From assembly GCF_005543295.1 (NCBI RefSeq), contig NZ_SRSG01000056.1, positions 1 to 52,462 on the forward strand: DNA of 52,462 nucleotides, given 5' to 3'. The DNA is from Halalkalirubrum salinum (GTDB lineage Archaea > Halobacteriota > Halobacteria > Halobacteriales > Haloferacaceae). The first letter of the stretch is position 1, and the number at the start of each line of letters is the position of its first letter. Under the pieces are notes generated by a model that had not been told where the DNA came from, ran no database searches, and saw nothing but the letters and a program-made list of their open reading frames with translations. Both the position numbers and the translations under genes were made by a program. Of this stretch, positions 46,430 to 52,462 are shown piece after piece.

Positions 46430-46959
46430 CAGACTGCTTCTGGCTCACCAGTGGGGTTTTCGACCGCGCTGAGCGCGAGCGCCACTTCAGCGAATGCGAG
46501 GTTCCGCCGCGTCGTTCGCCACTTCAGGAGCGTCTCTGCGTCGATCTCCGCGTGGGATCGGACGGCGTCATCGGGCGAGTTAGCGCCGAAGCGGTCGCCG
46601 TACTCTCGAAGCTCCTCGCGCATCTCCAGAACGCGTGTCGAGAGCGTATCGGTGTCCGTTTCGTCGAGGATACGCCGAGCCTGTTCGAGGGCGAGCGAGT
46701 CCGTGGACCGCTGATACAGCGTTCCCGTCGAGTCTGGTGACGCGGTCTCTGCCACGTAGCCGTGTTCGACAAGCGAACGGAGGTGCTTGCGGGCTGTCTG
46801 CTCCGACGTAAGGGCCTTTTTGGCAACGATCGCCGCGCTCATGGGCTCGTACGCCGTGCGCATCACTGACCGCACACGGTCGAACGGGCTGGTCTCACGC
46901 TTCCAGTCCTCTTTGGCGCGCTCGTTCACATCTTCGAACGGAGGGGCAGATTCTGGCAT
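46429..46959 (-). CDS. DUF7342-like winged-helix regulator
   Basis: The 176-aa protein has a winged-helix segment with EPMSAAIVAKKALTSEQTARKHLRSLVEHGYVAETASPDSTGTLYQRS (residues about 38-86), where the recognition helix is TSEQTARKHLRSLVEHG, followed by a helical C-terminal domain. Haloarchaeal DUF7342 proteins have this layout and are often paired with small genes as here. It is the first of a two-gene operon and probably acts as the antitoxin or autoregulator. Confidence 0.75.
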   Translation of the reverse strand: MPESAPPFEDVNERAKEDWKRETSPFDRVRSVMRTAYEPMSAAIVAKKALTSEQTARKHLRSLVEHGYVAETASPDSTGTLYQRSTDSLALEQARRILDETDTDTLSTRVLEMREELREYGDRFGANSPDDAVRSHAEIDAETLLKWRTTRRNLAFAEVALALSAVENPTGEPEAV

Positions 46960-47308
46960 CGAATTACTATACGAGACAGGAGCAGATCACTCTTCGGGAT
47001 GCTATTCTTATCCTCCTGGCCTGTCGGGTGCGTATCAGTACGCCTAAGAGCCAATGAGCGACTTTCCTCACTCTACACGGGTTGCTGGAGGACTGTACTT
47101 CTCCTCTCAACCAGGTTGCGAGGACGTCTTCGCGGTCCAATGCGATTTCTTGAACGGCTGAAATTCAGAGAGATTGCGAGGCGGATACCCCGAGGCTTGA
47201 CCTCGGGGAGGAAGCCGACACTCGATGACACAAACCACGTACGATGGCAAGGCTGACTCCCCACACCTGAAAAATACTTTCAAGTATCACTAAGCATACT
47301 AATGAAGT

Positions 47309-48538
47309 ATGGAGGTCGTTAGGAACATCCAGATAAAGCTCGACGTTCCCGAGGACGCTCATAGCGTTCTCGATGAGACGTTCGAGCAATTCCAACAGGC
47401 GGCCCAACACGTCGCTGACGCTGGATGGAGTGACGACCCCACAGAAATCGAGGACACGAAGAACACGCTCCACGAACAAACCTACACTACTGTTCGGGAG
47501 CAGACTAGTCTGCAAGCCAGTCTCGTCCAATCTGCTCGAGATCTCGCCGCCGACGCGCTCGGCAACTGCAAAGACCGCATCCTCGACGAAGGTGAAAAGG
47601 CAAGCAAGCCTGAGTTCCGAGGGAGCGTCGTCGTGTACAATGGGCGCACCATCACGTACAACGACGACCACGTAACGCTCGCAACCGTGGACGACCGCGT
47701 GACTGCCGAGTTCGTCACACCCGAGGATGACGAGGGGACACCGTTTGCGGAGTATTGGACGTCAGAGTGGGAACGGAAGGAAGCCACGCTCCACAAGCCT
47801 GACGGCACGTACTACCTCCACGTCGCAGTCGAGAAAGAAGTCGAACCCGCCGATTCTAGCGACGATTCGACCGAGAACGGAGTGGTTCTTGGCGTTGACT
47901 TGAACGTGGACGGCTACCTGGCCGTCACCTCAACGGGAACGTTCCTTGGAAACGCAGACTACCTCAACCACTGCCGCGACGAGTATGAGCGTCGGCGCGG
48001 CAACCTCCAACAGACAGGCACTCGCTCCGCACACCTTACCATCAAGAGCATCGGCTCACGGTTCGCTCGGTGGAGTGCAGACTACCTCCACCGCATCTCG
48101 AAAGCGATTGTGCAGGAAGCCGTGGAGAACGACTGTACGGCGATTGCGTTCGAGAACCTGACGCATATCCGCGAACGCATCTCGAACGCCTCGAAGTTCC
48201 AGCAGTGGGCGTTCCGCGAACTCCAACGCCACGTCGAATACAAAGCCGAAGAATACGGCATCGACGTGGACGATGTTGCCCCTGCATACACGTCGCAGCG
48301 GTGCAGTCACGGCGAATGCGGATTCACCCACGAGGACAACCGAGATGGTGACGAGTTCGAGTGCCTGAAGTGTGGTAAGGAACTCCACGCCGACTATAAC
48401 GCCGCTCGGAATATCGGGTGGCGTCTTATCCAGCACTGGCTCAAGTCTGGTGCTGGACGGGCCACCAGTCAACTGGCCCTCAAGTCAGGGACGCTGAACG
48501 CGAACGGTCGATTCAGACCTACTGCACTACTCAGTTAG
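47309..48538 (+). CDS. TnpB RNA-guided nuclease (IS1341-type)
   Basis: The 409-aa TnpB begins MEVVRNIQIKLDVPEDAHSV. The RuvC-like domain has the three acidic residues in GVDLNVDGYLAV (D), IAFENLTHIRERI (E) and the terminal ELHADYNAARNIG (D). The zinc-finger-like insert has CSHGECGF...FECLKCG, four cysteines as expected. Such proteins cut DNA guided by an omega RNA encoded at the element's right end. All catalytic residues are present, so it may be active. GATC, abundant in host genes, is almost absent here, in line with recent acquisition. Confidence 0.94.
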   Translation: MEVVRNIQIKLDVPEDAHSVLDETFEQFQQAAQHVADAGWSDDPTEIEDTKNTLHEQTYTTVREQTSLQASLVQSARDLAADALGNCKDRILDEGEKASKPEFRGSVVVYNGRTITYNDDHVTLATVDDRVTAEFVTPEDDEGTPFAEYWTSEWERKEATLHKPDGTYYLHVAVEKEVEPADSSDDSTENGVVLGVDLNVDGYLAVTSTGTFLGNADYLNHCRDEYERRRGNLQQTGTRSAHLTIKSIGSRFARWSADYLHRISKAIVQEAVENDCTAIAFENLTHIRERISNASKFQQWAFRELQRHVEYKAEEYGIDVDDVAPAYTSQRCSHGECGFTHEDNRDGDEFECLKCGKELHADYNAARNIGWRLIQHWLKSGAGRATSQLALKSGTLNANGRFRPTALLS

Positions 48539-48590
48539 AGCGGGAGTCCACTGACAAGCCTCGGGGCTTGACCCCGAGGCGGTTGACCAG
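48440..48590 (+). ncRNA. Predicted omega RNA overlapping the tnpB 3' end
   Basis: In IS200/IS605 elements the guide scaffold RNA runs from the end of tnpB through the right-end hairpin, and the guide is the flanking DNA that follows. The hairpin at 48558-48580 would be the last scaffold stem, and the guide would start soon after, near 48581-48600. This assignment is by analogy with known TnpB systems, not by a sequence match to a known scaffold. Confidence 0.45.
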
Positions 48591-48718
48591 CCCGGTGTAC
48601 GTCGAAGCTGTTTGGCTTCATCAACTCCTCGTCTCGATATCGCTGAAAAATCCGGTGTCAGTAACCACACCCGCCTTCATACCTCTTGGCCGCCTCGATG
48701 GAAAAGTTACGAATGTAA

Positions 48719-48739
48719 GCCAGAGTACCGAGTACTGAT
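48719..48739 (+). repeat. Right copy of the direct repeat
   Basis: Matches 45914-45934 in 19 of 21 positions and ends in the identical 14 bases TACCGAGTACTGAT. It is 23 nt from the left hairpin of the second tnpB element, and the two copies bracket the toxin-antitoxin-like pair and the first element. A nearby AAAGTTACGAA (48703-48713) is the reverse complement of a sequence at 45867-45877, so the flanks share inverted similarity as well. Confidence 0.65.
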
Positions 48740-48868
48740 TTAGCTGAATTGAGGCACTAAGCCCCCTTCCTCAACGAGTGAGTGAAGCGAGCGAGTAGGG
48801 AGGGGATACAGCGCCGCACAGTTCTCATACACTCTACGGTTGCAGGCCCACACAATCACAACTCTTTT

Positions 48869-48892
48869 ATGCATATAGTAAATATAATGCAT
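48869..48892 (+). promoter_or_regulatory. Paired ATGCAT sites at the RHH start
   Basis: The palindromic hexamer ATGCAT occurs at 48869-48874 and 48887-48892, 18 bp apart centre to centre, enclosing an AT-rich core (ATAGTAAATATA) that could be the TATA element. Because the encoded protein is RHH-type, and such proteins often bind paired palindromic half-sites over their own promoter, autoregulation is a reasonable guess. Confidence 0.45.
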
Positions 48893-49015
48893 ACAGTGAA
48901 GCGGACCACAATCACGCTCCGAGAGGACCAACACAAATGGATTCAGGAACACCACTTGAATCTCTCATCGTTCATTCGTGAGCGACTTGACGAGTACATC
49001 GAGGAACACGAGTAG
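48887..49015 (+). CDS. 42-aa ribbon-helix-helix protein upstream of tnpB
   Basis: The product MHTVKRTTITLREDQHKWIQ ... LNLSSFIRERLDEYIEEHE is a minimal RHH (CopG/MetJ-like) fold: strand RTTITL, helix DQHKWIQEHH, then LSSFIRERLDEYIEE. Its stop is followed by only three nucleotides before the tnpB ATG. The start could instead be ATG 48869 or GTG 48896; ATG 48887 gives the usual N-terminus length. It belongs to the element and probably regulates tnpB. Confidence 0.75.
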   Translation: MHTVKRTTITLREDQHKWIQEHHLNLSSFIRERLDEYIEEHE

Positions 49016-49018
49016 CAG

Positions 49019-50320
49019 ATGTACTACGCCTACAACTACCGACTCAAGCCGTCCGACGCCCACCGTGAGGTGTTGGACCGCCACCGCGATATTTGTAGGC
49101 AACTATACAATCACGCGCTCTACCGCTTCGACCAAATCCCCGAGGACGCAGGTACGCTCAACCAACGTGTTCGGTCCATCCGAGACGAAATCCCCGACCT
49201 GAAAGATTGGTGGGATGACCTCTCGGACGTGTACTCGACAGTTCTGCAAACCGCAGTCATGCGAATCGAGCAGAACGTCAAAGGCCTCTCCAAACTCAAG
49301 GAGAACGGCTACGACGTCGGTCAACTCAAGTGGGAACCGCCACGGGAGTTTCGCAGTTTCACGTACAGTCAGTCTGGCTTCAAGCTCGACAAGAAGGGCG
49401 GTCAGACTGTCATGTCTCTCTCGAAACTCGCAGACATTCCGATTCGGCTTCACCGTGCCATCCCTGACGTTCACAAGAGCGACAGCTCTTGTGCAGCCCA
49501 TCAAAAATCTCCGATTTCTGAGGACGACGCGAAACTCAAGCAAGTCACGGTTAAGAAGGAATCGACGGGCGAGTGGTTCGCCACGTTCGGTGTCGAAATG
49601 GACCGCGAACCACCCGAACCGCCTGAGAATCCCGAGAAGTGCGTCGGTATCGATGTGGGGATTCTCAAGTACGCCCACGACACCGACGGCACGGCAGTCG
49701 GGTCACTCGACCTTTCCGACGAGCGCGAACGCTTGGAGCGCGAGCAACGGAAGCTCTCGCGGAAACAGCACGGGTCCAACAACTACGAAAAGCAACGACG
49801 GCGCGTTGCGAGGTGTCACGCCGACCTCCGACGGAAGCGCCGCGACTTCCTCCACAAGCTCTCGAATTACTACGCCACCGAGTACGACCTCGTAGCGGTC
49901 GAAGACCTGAATGTGAAGGGGATAATGGAGTCGCCGTCGAACAGTCGCAACACGGCGTCTGCGGCATGGCGGACGTTCCTCTCGTTACTCGAATACAAGT
50001 GTGAGCGGGAGGGAACGCACTTCGTCGCGGTCAACCCGAGAGGAACGACCAAAGAGTGTGCGTCCTGTGGCGTTTCGACGGAGAAGCCGTTGTGGGTCCG
50101 TGAACACTCCTGTCCCGCGTGCGGGTTTGAGGCGGACAGGGACGCGAACGCAGCGTGGAACATCCTTTCTCGTGGCCTCGAAGACGTAGGAGTGGGATAC
50201 TCCGAATCAACGCCTGTGGAGACTGCGCTCCCTGTGGATACGTCCGTGTCTGCAAAGCGCGTCGTTGAAACAGGAAGCCCTACCCTCAAGGAGCGAACGG
50301 CGTCAGCCGTGAGCGAGTAG
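49019..50320 (+). CDS. TnpB RNA-guided nuclease with an 18-aa hairpin insertion
   Basis: The 433-aa TnpB starts MYYAYNYRLKPSDAHREVLD. The RuvC residues are in GIDVGILKYAHD (D), LVAVEDLNVKGI (E) and DRDANAAWNIL (D). The zinc finger has CASCG and CPACGFE. An 18-residue stretch, VHKSDSSCAAHQKSPISE, lies between AIPD and DDAKLKQVTVKKE, where related proteins run straight on; the DNA there is a twin hairpin flanked by CTGA (49464-49521). The frame is preserved. The C-terminal TGSPTLKERTASAVSE is encoded by the right-end structure. GATC is absent from the gene as far as I could see. Confidence 0.93.
   Translation: MYYAYNYRLKPSDAHREVLDRHRDICRQLYNHALYRFDQIPEDAGTLNQRVRSIRDEIPDLKDWWDDLSDVYSTVLQTAVMRIEQNVKGLSKLKENGYDVGQLKWEPPREFRSFTYSQSGFKLDKKGGQTVMSLSKLADIPIRLHRAIPDVHKSDSSCAAHQKSPISEDDAKLKQVTVKKESTGEWFATFGVEMDREPPEPPENPEKCVGIDVGILKYAHDTDGTAVGSLDLSDERERLEREQRKLSRKQHGSNNYEKQRRRVARCHADLRRKRRDFLHKLSNYYATEYDLVAVEDLNVKGIMESPSNSRNTASAAWRTFLSLLEYKCEREGTHFVAVNPRGTTKECASCGVSTEKPLWVREHSCPACGFEADRDANAAWNILSRGLEDVGVGYSESTPVETALPVDTSVSAKRVVETGSPTLKERTASAVSE
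49464..49521. repeat. Twin hairpin insertion 1 (in tnpB)
   Basis: A 50-nt insert (49468-49517) is flanked by CTGA at 49464-49467 and 49518-49521. It contains hairpin CACAAGAGC-GACA-GCTCTTGTG (49472-49493), an 11-nt spacer, and hairpin AAATC-TCC-GATTT (49505-49517). With one CTGA it adds 54 nt, exactly 18 codons, so the TnpB frame survives. Confidence 0.8.
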
Positions 50321-50330
50321 GGTAGGGTAG
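50190..50330 (+). ncRNA. Predicted omega RNA of the second tnpB
   Basis: The right-end structure spans 50278-50327, with an outer stem CCCTACCCT/AGGGTAGGG and an inner hairpin ACGGC-GTCA-GCCGT (50297-50310). By analogy with TnpB systems, a guide RNA scaffold should cover the end of tnpB up to about here, and the guide follows from about 50331. Only the stems are directly seen; the 5' limit is a guess. Confidence 0.45.
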
Positions 50331-50335
50331 TTCAC

Positions 50336-50373
50336 CGCGTCGATTGAAGTGCGTATACAGCGCGTCGATTGAA
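50336..50373. repeat. Two 13-bp direct repeats beside the element's right end
   Basis: CGCGTCGATTGAA occurs at 50336-50348 and 50361-50373, 25 bp apart, immediately outside the right hairpin of the second tnpB element and before the convergent tpiA 3' end. The cause may be target duplication, slippage, or a binding site pair; I cannot tell which. Confidence 0.55.
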
Positions 50374-50390
50374 ATGAGTGTTCTGCGCGT

Positions 50391-51035
50391 TTATAATTCC
50401 GAGACGAGATCTTCCAGCACGGCTGCCGGATCGTCGGCTTTTGCGACCCCGCTGGCCAGAAGCACACCTGTTGCACCTAGTTCGCCTGCGGCGGCGACGT
50501 CATCACCGGTCGAGACGCCCGCCCCACAAAATACTGAGACCCCATCGTTTACGCGGCTGGCAGCGTCAACTGCGTTGGTCACGATGTCTGGATCCGCAGA
50601 GCTGACAGAGACGTCTCCACCGATAAGCTCCGGCGGCTCGACGGCCGCAGCATCCGGTCCGAGCGCGGCGACAGCGGCGATCTGCTCGGGGTTGTTCCCA
50701 CAAACACAGGTTTCGAGACCAGCGCGTTCGGCAGCAGCCACCGAGGCGTCGATGTCTGCGAGCCGCAGGCGGTTCTCCGAGTGATTGATCAGCGTGCCGA
50801 CCGCGCCAGCATCTGCGACCGCCTCCGCAAGCGTACTCCCAGTGTGGCTGCCGTGACCGTTCGGTGAGACGTGTTGTGCCCACGTTTCGACGCCTGTCTC
50901 GGAGACACGCTCGAGATGGGCCGCTTGGGGCGCAACTGCGATCCGAACGCCGGATTCTTCGGCCACATCGCGGGCGGCAGTTGCGATCTCGATCGGGTCA
51001 CACGGGTACGCCTTGAGGTTGACCAGGATGAACAT
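50391..51035 (-). CDS. tpiA: Triosephosphate isomerase
   Basis: The 214-aa archaeal-type enzyme interconverts dihydroxyacetone phosphate and glyceraldehyde-3-phosphate. Catalytic residues are visible: N6 and K8 ([11 protein letters not shown]), the histidine in INHSENRL and the glutamate in VEPPELIGG. The phosphate-binding GAGVSTGDD and [17 protein letters not shown] are present. Haloarchaeal TpiA is short, as here. It sits between two insertion sequences but is full-length. It links metabolically to glpK/glpABC elsewhere in the window. Confidence 0.95.
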
Positions 51036-51171
51036 ACTCTACTGAATGCTCCCCTTGACAAATAGGTTGACCCTTTCGGCCAATCTTGAGTCAGCCAAGG
51101 GCCCGCCGTCTTTACAACAGCAGTACTTTAGCTTTTGGACGGCCTCCGCTCTAAAGAAAACAGCGAGAGTT

Positions 51172-51241
51172 CCACGGGTTTCCGAAAACGTCCGTTTTCG
51201 GCTTTCGCAAATCTTCGATTTGCTCAACACCTGACCCGTGG
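51172..51241. repeat. Left-end hairpin containing twin hairpin insertion 2
   Basis: The outer stem CCACGGGT/ACCCGTGG encloses two perfect hairpins: CCGAAAACG-TC-CGTTTTCGG (51182-51201), a 5-nt spacer CTTTC, and GCAAATC-TTC-GATTTGC (51207-51223). The twin hairpins fill the loop of what would otherwise be a compact IS end structure. Confidence 0.75.
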
Positions 51242-51592
51242 GTGAATCGCGTACGCTCGCCTAATGTTCAGTATCCTCTATGTACCGAGGAACCACGTCC
51301 TCGGAAACTGCACCCGTCGTCCCGACGTAGTAGCCATCCTTCCACAGGCCACTTCCCCAGAAGTACCGCTGTTTGAGTTCAGGATGACGCTTGAGAACCG
51401 TTCGTCCCGAGTAACCTTTGAATTGCTTGGCTATCTCGGCAGGACTCCATTTCGGCTCGGTCTCCACGAACAAGTGAACGTGGTCGGAGGCAATCTCCAT
51501 CGACACAATTTCGTGACCAAACCGCTCGGCAGTCCCCCGGAACAACTCCGAAAGTTCGTCTAGAGCTACTTCCAAAATCCCGTGTCGATACT

Positions 51593-51638
51593 AAGCGGAG
51601 CGAAGCTCCGCGAGGTACGCAAAGCTCCGCTTTGCTTG
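51593..51638. repeat. Twin hairpin insertion 3 (in tnpA)
   Basis: A 46-nt insert flanked by ACT at 51590-51592 and 51639-51641 contains hairpins GCGGAGC-GAA-GCTCCGC (51595-51611) and GCAAAGC-TCC-GCTTTGC (51619-51635) with a 7-nt spacer. With the 3-nt flank it adds 49 nt and frame-shifts tnpA. Confidence 0.8.
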
Positions 51639-51648
51639 ACTTCGGACA

Positions 51649-51689
51649 TTGCAAATCTCTGATTTGCAAGCAGTCAATCTTTGATTGAC
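51649..51689. repeat. Twin hairpin insertion 4 (in tnpA)
   Basis: A 41-nt insert flanked by GACA at 51645-51648 and 51690-51693 contains hairpins GCAAATC-TCT-GATTTGC (51651-51667) and GTCAATC-TTT-GATTGAC (51673-51689), separated by 5 nt. It adds 45 nt and keeps the tnpA frame. Confidence 0.8.
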
Positions 51690-51796
51690 GACACCACACG
51701 AAATGATATTTACACGAACTAATCGAATGTCCGTGACTCCTGTAAGTTCCTATCCTAATCCCTACTTTTACTATCATTTAATTCGATAGTCAAGGT

Positions 51797-52462
51797 ATGG
51801 GTATCGAAGAAGTCACGAAGACCGCACGCACTCGACTCTGTATAGAGTCTGGTGAGCGGTCGTGGCTCAAAGATGCCCGCTTCACCGCACGAGACATCTC
51901 CAACGACACACTCCGACTCAAACAAGACGGCTACAACAAGACCGAAATTCAACGCGAAGTTGACCGCGATGACTTCCTGCGGAACAACAAGTGCGCGGTC
52001 GTCGCCAAGGCTCTGCAAGCGTGGGATTCTTACAAAGAACTCCTCAACTGGTGGCACGACCAAGACGACACCCACGTCGGGAAACCGTCGCCACCGGCCA
52101 CAGACAAGAACGGAGCCTACCCACTTGTCATGGCGCACACCGAAGGCTACCGACTCACCTGCAACGACGAAGATGACCGGGTTCAGTTCCGTGTGAGTCC
52201 GAAGCCGTATAAGAAGGTGAAAGGGCATCTTCAAGGGCGACCGGAAGATCTTGAACTCATCGAATCGGCCTTGACTGAAGATGAGTGGTCGTTGGGACAG
52301 GCTGAACTTCTGTCTCGAAAATCAAAGATTTTCGACGAGTCATCGAAGTGCCGTGGCACTTCGAGATACCGAGATGGCGTGTACTACCTACACGTCACGG
52401 TCAAAACAGAAACCAAAGTGCCTGAATCCGAAGACGCTGACACGCTCGTCGGCGTCGATATT
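51797..52462 (+). CDS. tnpB: Partial TnpB of the IS605-type element
   Basis: From the ATG at 51797 the frame is open for 222 codons to the window end (MGIEEVTKTARTRLCIESGE...). The N-terminal half of TnpB is seen, ending at LVGVDI, the start of the first RuvC motif; catalytic parts lie outside the window. Between LLSR and YRDGVYYLHVTVKTETK the insert KSKIFDESSKCRGTSR is encoded by a twin hairpin (52315-52364) in frame. It is a different TnpB family from the two at 47.3 and 49.0 kb. Confidence 0.85.
   Translation, partial: MGIEEVTKTARTRLCIESGERSWLKDARFTARDISNDTLRLKQDGYNKTEIQREVDRDDFLRNNKCAVVAKALQAWDSYKELLNWWHDQDDTHVGKPSPPATDKNGAYPLVMAHTEGYRLTCNDEDDRVQFRVSPKPYKKVKGHLQGRPEDLELIESALTEDEWSLGQAELLSRKSKIFDESSKCRGTSRYRDGVYYLHVTVKTETKVPESEDADTLVGVDI
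52315..52364. repeat. Twin hairpin insertion 5 (in tnpB)
   Basis: Two hairpins, TCGAAAATC-AAA-GATTTTCGA (52315-52335) and TCGAAGTGCC-GT-GGCACTTCGA (52343-52364), stand 7 nt apart in the partial tnpB. Together with flanks the insertion is about 48 nt, 16 codons, so the frame is retained. A flanking duplication is less clear here because both ends share TCGA. Confidence 0.7.

Follow-up and report, generated by a model that had tools for sequence, protein, structure and literature searches.

TnpB nucleases are thought to be ancestral to Cas12, and to our knowledge little is known about how they are kept at tolerable levels. Among haloarchaeal IS200/IS605 elements, those carrying tnpA and tnpB (ISHmu6, ISHma12 and ISHje2, by the labels of plasmid records) share with the locus analyzed here the TnpB clade, both end strings and the upstream motif, but have tnpA and a core promoter where this locus has an array of 9-bp repeats and a gene for a ribbon-helix-helix (RHH)-like protein. 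The DUF2080 gene (PF09853, NF033496) is likewise small, occupies the same slot before tnpB and has promoter repeats of its own; its sequence is unrelated, however, its repeats have a period of 11, and its family is already named, whereas the RHH family is not. The RHH autorepressors, which include the CcdA-type antitoxins and also CopG, omega and MetJ, resemble the new gene in the short RHH-like sequence, the tandem repeats in the gene's own promoter and the position as first gene of an apparent operon. Unlike in these autorepressors, the partner here is an RNA-guided nuclease, the protein consists of the minimal domain only, and the family match is below threshold. TnpB-related control of transcription is also found in TldR, described in the available part of its source as TnpB-derived RNA-guided repressors (PMC13418256), but in that system the repressing is done by the TnpB relative itself, whereas at the present locus TnpB is presumed to be the nuclease under control. 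The haloarchaeal IS1341-type tnpB genes with a sotRNA or omega RNA have in common with the present locus a tnpB without tnpA and an RNA from the 3′ end; in the available text they appear without an RHH partner (PMC8303175, PMC12558985), and the presumed RNA of the present locus has no Rfam match. Numerous haloarchaeal tnpB genes without tnpA were termed unusual in 2011, 35 of 38 Natronomonas tnpB genes being unlinked to tnpA, and the mention of CopG in the accessible portion of that paper concerns plasmid proteins (PMC3119063). PMC10134880, as far as its text was available, has three detected and argues for post-transcriptional repression, which would be a layer beside the RHH control proposed here. 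We found no description of an RHH gene coupled to tnpB in the literature covered, nor such a coupling in the available parts of PMC8303175, PMC12558985, PMC3119063, PMC10440598 and PMC10134880; it may be mentioned elsewhere, as preprints and most subscription papers lie outside this coverage.

The window, by which we mean the whole stretch of 52,462 nucleotides analyzed, is contig C6 of its own genome (G000), a 3.4-Mb haloarchaeal genome, and the features of the RHH–tnpB element in it are collected in Table 1. The window's TnpB has the OrfB and zinc-finger (TNB) domains and belongs to the RNA-guided endonuclease family (Pfam PF01385, PF07282; NCBIfam NF040570); its D-E-D and CxxC motifs, which we take to be those of the RuvC domain and the zinc finger, look intact by eye. 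The TATA-like call leans on what we assume to be the typical position of haloarchaeal TATA boxes. The right end (50240–50335) is predicted to fold better than its shuffles (z −3.37), and the left end has a z of −1.69, with an equally good fold in 12 of 200 shuffles; an Rfam search of 46500–52462, including the right-end hairpin, gave no match. The element has no tnpA of its own, the RHH gene occupying the tnpA position. As its own tnpA is missing and the genome has only distant TnpA, the window's element is non-autonomous and IS1341-like.

Table 1. Features of the RHH–tnpB element in the window (positions of the whole stretch)
Feature	Position	Strand	Evidence
Whole RHH–tnpB element of IS200/IS605 type, including a putative TTAG target	48740..50335	+	1,598-bp, 97% alignment to the SHRA6 element
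Left end	48740..48812	+	TTAGCTGAATTGAGGC(A/G)CTAAGCCCCCTTCCTCA-type string; left-end-like string counted across loci
GGCCCACA motif, in relatives often an 8-bp tandem	48845..48852	+	5′ of all three cassette types (RHH, tnpA, DUF2080)
TATA-like stretch TTTTATGCAT	48865..48874	+	Sequence; lies ~27 nt 5′ of the proposed leaderless start
Three tandem 9-bp repeats, proposed RHH operator	48869..48895 (48869–48877, 48878–48886, 48887–48895)	+	Lag-9 self-similarity in relatives
RHH-like gene, 39 aa from GTG or 42 aa from ATG 48887	48896..49015	+	Start conserved in relatives; dN/dS; sub-threshold Pfam CcdA match
tnpB, 433 aa	49019..50320	+	PF01385, PF07282; NF040570 guided TnpB, E 2.8e-85
Right-end hairpin, presumed 3′ part of the omega RNA scaffold, ends GTAGTTCAC	50276..50335	+	Fold z; end-string counts; no Rfam match

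Directly upstream of the element, at 47309–48538 (+), a second TnpB (IS1341-type) is encoded that clearly differs from the first, the two sharing about 28% identity over 218 residues; an 82% identical relative lies on G000:C5 (L002). An IS200-type TnpA fragment with an in-frame TAG lies at 51261–51605 (−) and is 28% identical to the TnpA of the element's relatives, and an ORF of at least 222 aa (51797–52462, +), resembling a third TnpB by eye, is cut off by the end of the contig.

The initial annotation described a 42-aa RHH protein ending three nucleotides before tnpB, with two ATGCAT palindromes at its start. The ORF at 48869–49015 (+), which translates as MHIVNIMHTVKRTTITLREDQHKWIQEHHLNLSSFIRERLDEYIEEHE, bears this out, the 42 aa being counted from the ATG at 48887, and the spacing is as claimed (RHH stop 49013–49015, tnpB ATG 49019). 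Both ATGCAT sites are present, at 48869–48874 and 48887–48892, with starts 18 bp apart. The hexamer is not enriched in the window as a whole (6 found versus 7.15 expected), and the pair at the RHH start is the only close one in the window, with 0.04 expected by chance and such a pair present in 4 of 100 shuffles. The ATG at 48887 is a less likely start than the GTG at 48896, giving 39 aa, because relatives such as L009, L012 and L014 carry an ATG exactly at the latter position, which is also where conservation of the protein sets in. Comparison with relatives also led us to drop the palindrome pair: the sites are real and part of an operator-like array, but are better read as the first and third units of a threefold tandem 9-bp repeat.

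In the window, the array reads ATGCATATA, GTAAATATA, ATGCATACA and then the GTG. Taken alone, these 27 nt show a modest 9-bp periodicity (P = 0.026 versus dinucleotide shuffles); over the relatives, it is far beyond chance. We computed lag-wise self-identity for 144 of 147 RHH loci with a usable start (L002, L077 and L106 dropped), dereplicated to 72 at 85% identity of the upstream DNA, and for controls of 58 tnpA and 17 DUF2080 upstreams, dereplicated to 17 and 12 (7 tnpA and 1 DUF2080 dropped for having no start pattern). Lag-9 self-identity was 0.50 versus 0.26 in shuffled sequences for type-A upstreams (49 dereplicated, z 14.7) and 0.44 versus 0.31 for type-B upstreams (23 dereplicated, z 6.7), and the signal was not seen in the 17 dereplicated tnpA-type controls (z −2.1). 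Among lags 6–12, 9 was the best in 50 of 72 RHH, 2 of 17 tnpA and 0 of 12 DUF2080 dereplicated upstreams, the remaining 22 RHH upstreams having another best lag. In type A, lag 7 was also raised (z 7.2) and lag 11 slightly so (z 3.5), and even lags such as 6, 8, 10 and 12 were depleted, as would be expected when alternating purine–pyrimidine motifs fall out of step. The DUF2080 upstreams (19 loci within L216–L242) have a period of 11 instead, with TGTTGAAACAA-type repeats (11 of 12, z 7.1), and in the tnpA upstreams lag 8 is raised, though less strongly (z 3.9). Across the relatives, the sequence of the repeat changes and its 9-bp period is kept: by eye, the motif is RTGCATA with RHH proteins of the KR-types, GCGCATA with the RRKN-types and TTTGTGTA with the TRKN-types. 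Operator similarity tracks RHH (partial rank correlation 0.40) more than TnpB (0.18). Thus, the window and L035 are 92% identical in TnpB, 61% in RHH and 52% in the operator, and L035 and L155 are 64% identical in TnpB, 97% in RHH and 85% in the operator; as the operator adjoins the RHH gene, the correlation may reflect mere linkage and gives weak support only. Haloarchaeal mRNAs are habitually leaderless, and with the GTG at 48896 as start, the repeats would cover approximately the stretch between TATA box and start site. A repressor bound to this putative operator would block initiation.

Coupling of the RHH gene to tnpB extends far beyond the window. At E ≤0.01, 149 of 391 Halobacteria genomes (own included) have a sequence that matches the RHH protein, some of them weakly. 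We drew RHH loci from the matches listed in order of E. Among these, TnpB lies just downstream on the same strand in all 29 loci from other genomes, with a gap of −1 to +4 nt after the RHH stop, and is 63–96% identical to the window's, in a few loci as fragments. About 113 nonduplicate places without a locus remained (hand count), of which we took 100 and left out 13. A TnpB-homologous ORF adjoins RHH in 96 of these 100, 95 of them at −4 to +6 nt, a gap extrapolated from the aligned part of TnpB, and TnpB is near full length in one frame in 70. Of the four without a recognizable adjacent TnpB ORF, L086 retains the C-terminal half of TnpB, L091 and L106 have short N-terminal remnants, and near the RHH match of L110 no TnpB remnant was found. 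Among the best 80 of 174 relatives, TnpB is adjacent in 74; the six exceptions are two contig ends (L277, L341), a truncated TnpB (L330) and three missing ones (L297, L337, L338). The sets overlap, L001/L033 and L004/L034 being the same places and L338 and L330 being L110 and L086, respectively. This linkage (29/29, 96/100 and 74/80) supports the view of the initial annotation that the RHH gene is part of the TnpB element and not an incidental neighbor; that annotation took an RHH gene without tnpB in most genomes as the sign of an incidental coupling, and the survey of relatives found the opposite. Two places in the own genome were rejected as further copies: L003 has an internal stop and no match to the RHH profile, and L002 (G000:C5:283708–283809, −) is a different RHH-like open frame, which at 102 aa is longer and lies 3′ of a TnpB that belongs to the other clade. 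A match on G075:C1 has the same frame length as L002.

The position directly 5′ of tnpB is exchangeable. Among the 30 TnpB loci in the matches listed (window included), it holds RHH in 14 and tnpA in 16, with both in none and neither in none. A further 77 TnpB loci have tnpA in 53 cases and neither tnpA nor RHH in 24; as they were picked for having no RHH neighbor among the matches listed, the share of RHH among TnpBs is not readable from them. Of those 24, one is truncated, four have no gene in the position and 19 have a third small gene 3–9 nt before tnpB. The one of the 19 that was profiled matches NF033496 (E 5.8e-19), the model of the DUF2080 family transposase-associated protein, with PF09853 falling just short of its cut-off, and the remaining ones look alike and would be DUF2080-type too; the family is present in 61 of 145 Halobacteria genomes. 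Where TnpB aligns to the window's over 200 residues or more with at least 75% identity, tnpA is present in 67 cases, RHH in 52 and neither in 3, a tally that, like the end-string counts below, holds some places twice. In all three the TnpB is partial, and in L086 and L151 RHH is present further up. Among close TnpBs, the slot thus holds RHH or tnpA, never both as far as seen, and more distant ones may have DUF2080.

The elements with RHH and with tnpA have their ends in common. Among the loci with a long TnpB (114 RHH and 70 tnpA), 109 of the RHH type and 67 of the tnpA type have the right-end string TAGTTCAC, and 99 and 65, respectively, have the left-end-like string. Compared letter by letter, the window and the tnpA-type L065 share the left end and the GGCCCACA-type motif and diverge from the promoter core, and the two types of element differ from there to the tnpB start. 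As the ends are common to both types, RHH replaces tnpA. A GGCCCACAGGCCCACG stretch (8-bp tandem), conserved at about −60 to −45 in relatives (window 48845–48852), precedes RHH, tnpA and DUF2080 cassettes alike and is perhaps an exchange point or a host-factor site. To place the exchanges on a tree, we reduced 201 sufficiently long TnpBs to 187 at 98% identity (101 with RHH, 65 tnpA, 17 DUF2080 and 4 none). Parsimony gave 26 changes between RHH and other states; with 84 of 184 inner branches weak, a cautious count leaves at least 6 that are forced by well-supported branches. The slot has thus been reused repeatedly, most simply through recombination between elements. The exchangeable regulator slot is a stronger finding than the dedicated control of TnpB discussed below.

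The RHH–tnpB elements occur at different genomic sites. The window's element (match 48738–50335) is 97% identical in a 1,598-bp alignment to that of halophilic archaeon SHRA6 (G075), of the same genus, with no common flank in the stretches compared, and also aligns to an element of Halegenticoccus tardaugens at another site. In G027, two RHH–tnpB copies are 99.6% identical over ~1.52 kb and end exactly at GTAGTTCAC, with unrelated flanks. The element thus has defined ends and unrelated flanks at different sites. The two copies in G355, which has RHH elements and two copies of a close TnpA (100%), were rejected as evidence of movement because the duplication spans 3.1 kb and takes in the flanks as well. 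The only TnpA match in G027 is distant (27% identity), as is that in G000 (28%, at two places including the fragment in the window), which has one RHH element. At G000:C17:10769–11157, remnants matching both element ends lie close together without the element's genes; such gene-less paired ends resemble the PATEs described for Haloquadratum.

The sequence pattern of the small protein fits an RHH fold, and the protein is probably DNA-binding. The window's protein matches Pfam CcdA with E 0.0028 and 18.4 bits, below the curated cut-off of 22.4. NCBIfam, including the DUF2080 model NF033496, PDB sequences and phage records gave no match to it. An AlphaFold monomer showed one helix at low confidence (pLDDT 67) and no RHH shape; a poor monomer model is unsurprising for what would be an intertwined dimer, but it is not support. 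The best explanation of the locus, and in our judgment a likely one, is dedicated control, in which the RHH protein represses its own RHH–tnpB promoter and limits TnpB and its guide RNA. A small autoregulatory RHH cassette would have taken over the tnpA slot of an IS200/IS605 element, RHH and tnpB would be cotranscribed as one leaderless mRNA, and the three tandem 9-bp repeats would cover the TATA-to-start region of the promoter. RHH dimers would occupy the repeats side by side and block transcription initiation, and TnpB and the guide RNA from the same transcript would be held low. Having no transposase of its own, the element would be mobilized only by a TnpA working in trans at its ends.

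Other roles for the RHH protein have to be weighed against this one. It could be an antitoxin-like partner that binds the TnpB protein and blocks cutting, with promoter binding secondary. The nearest Pfam family is the CcdA antitoxin, matched at E ≤0.1 by 21 of 33 members of the RHH group, and among weak PHROG matches a HicB-like family is hit by 16 of 33. The order of regulator and then nuclease also resembles toxin–antitoxin operons, and on three similar-looking viral contigs (L243–L245:2001–2686) an RHH relative precedes and overlaps an ORF with a match to HNH endonucleases (21.1 versus the 21-bit cut-off). CcdA-type antitoxins, however, bind their toxins through a C-terminal extension beyond the RHH domain, whereas the window's protein ends three residues past the last invariant column of the alignment and its 39–42 aa approximate the RHH domain alone, with no extension. 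RHH, moreover, pairs with diverged TnpBs, and TnpBs of the tnpA- and DUF2080-types lack it, so that we consider this role unlikely. That the protein instead serves transposition as an accessory factor at the left end, helping or restraining a TnpA in trans, would agree with the replacement of tnpA by RHH inside shared ends and with the fact that such elements have moved. But ATGCAT occurs in the window's element only at the promoter and not at the ends, the RHH and DUF2080 cassettes each have promoter repeats of their own, and a TnpA partner is not evident in G027 and G000, where the only TnpA is distant (27–28% identity); this, too, seems rather improbable to us. Even less is to be said for the RHH ORF as a neutral hitchhiker left from tnpA loss, with the ATGCAT pair merely promoter. 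The ORF is short, unlisted in two plasmid records (where the gene table is incomplete) and matched by no NCBIfam model, but it is under purifying selection, with a median dN/dS of 0.136 (4,791 nonindependent pairs, pS 0.1–0.6, from 124 unique cores), and the other reading frames of these cores have stops in 96 and 101 of 124. Together with the matches in 149 of 391 genomes, some of them weak, and the alternation with tnpA, this makes such an origin scarcely credible.

Relatives of the RHH protein are also found outside the haloarchaea. In a phylum-wide sample, 39 of 392 genomes had matches to the RHH profile, five of them labeled only as same phylum (G399, G408, G487, G626 and G647). Of the 20 places taken from these five, L252, L260 and L262 are followed directly by an ORF that Pfam identifies as TnpB. 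The non-haloarchaeal G408 (L246–L258) has 13 matches to the RHH profile, 6 of them with a same-strand match to the TnpB profile; other same-phylum places have broken or other neighbors, and the ORFs after L264 and L265 are not TnpB-like. A further RHH relative (L303) lies in a contig labeled as a Syntrophomonadaceae bacterium MAG, which may be a mis-binned haloarchaeal contig. The cases of RHH relatives near viral HNH and non-haloarchaeal TnpB-like genes widen the picture but are few, and they may point to a general taming of mobile-element nucleases.

A wider reading, to which we give somewhat less than even weight, is that haloarchaeal TnpB transposons have a plug-in slot where tnpA and the promoter core are exchanged for unrelated small DNA-binding regulators, RHH with 9-bp or DUF2080 with 11-bp repeats. 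This would give regulated RNA-guided nuclease modules and, because copies of the same type share an operator, a regulator that acts on all copies in the cell and thus controls copy number; the taming of nucleases might then be general. If dedicated control is true, the RHH protein would be a compact regulator for TnpB tools, with a clean test in Haloferax. A swappable dedicated repressor with a recognizable operator would then partly answer how TnpB levels are held in check and why there are tnpB genes without tnpA.
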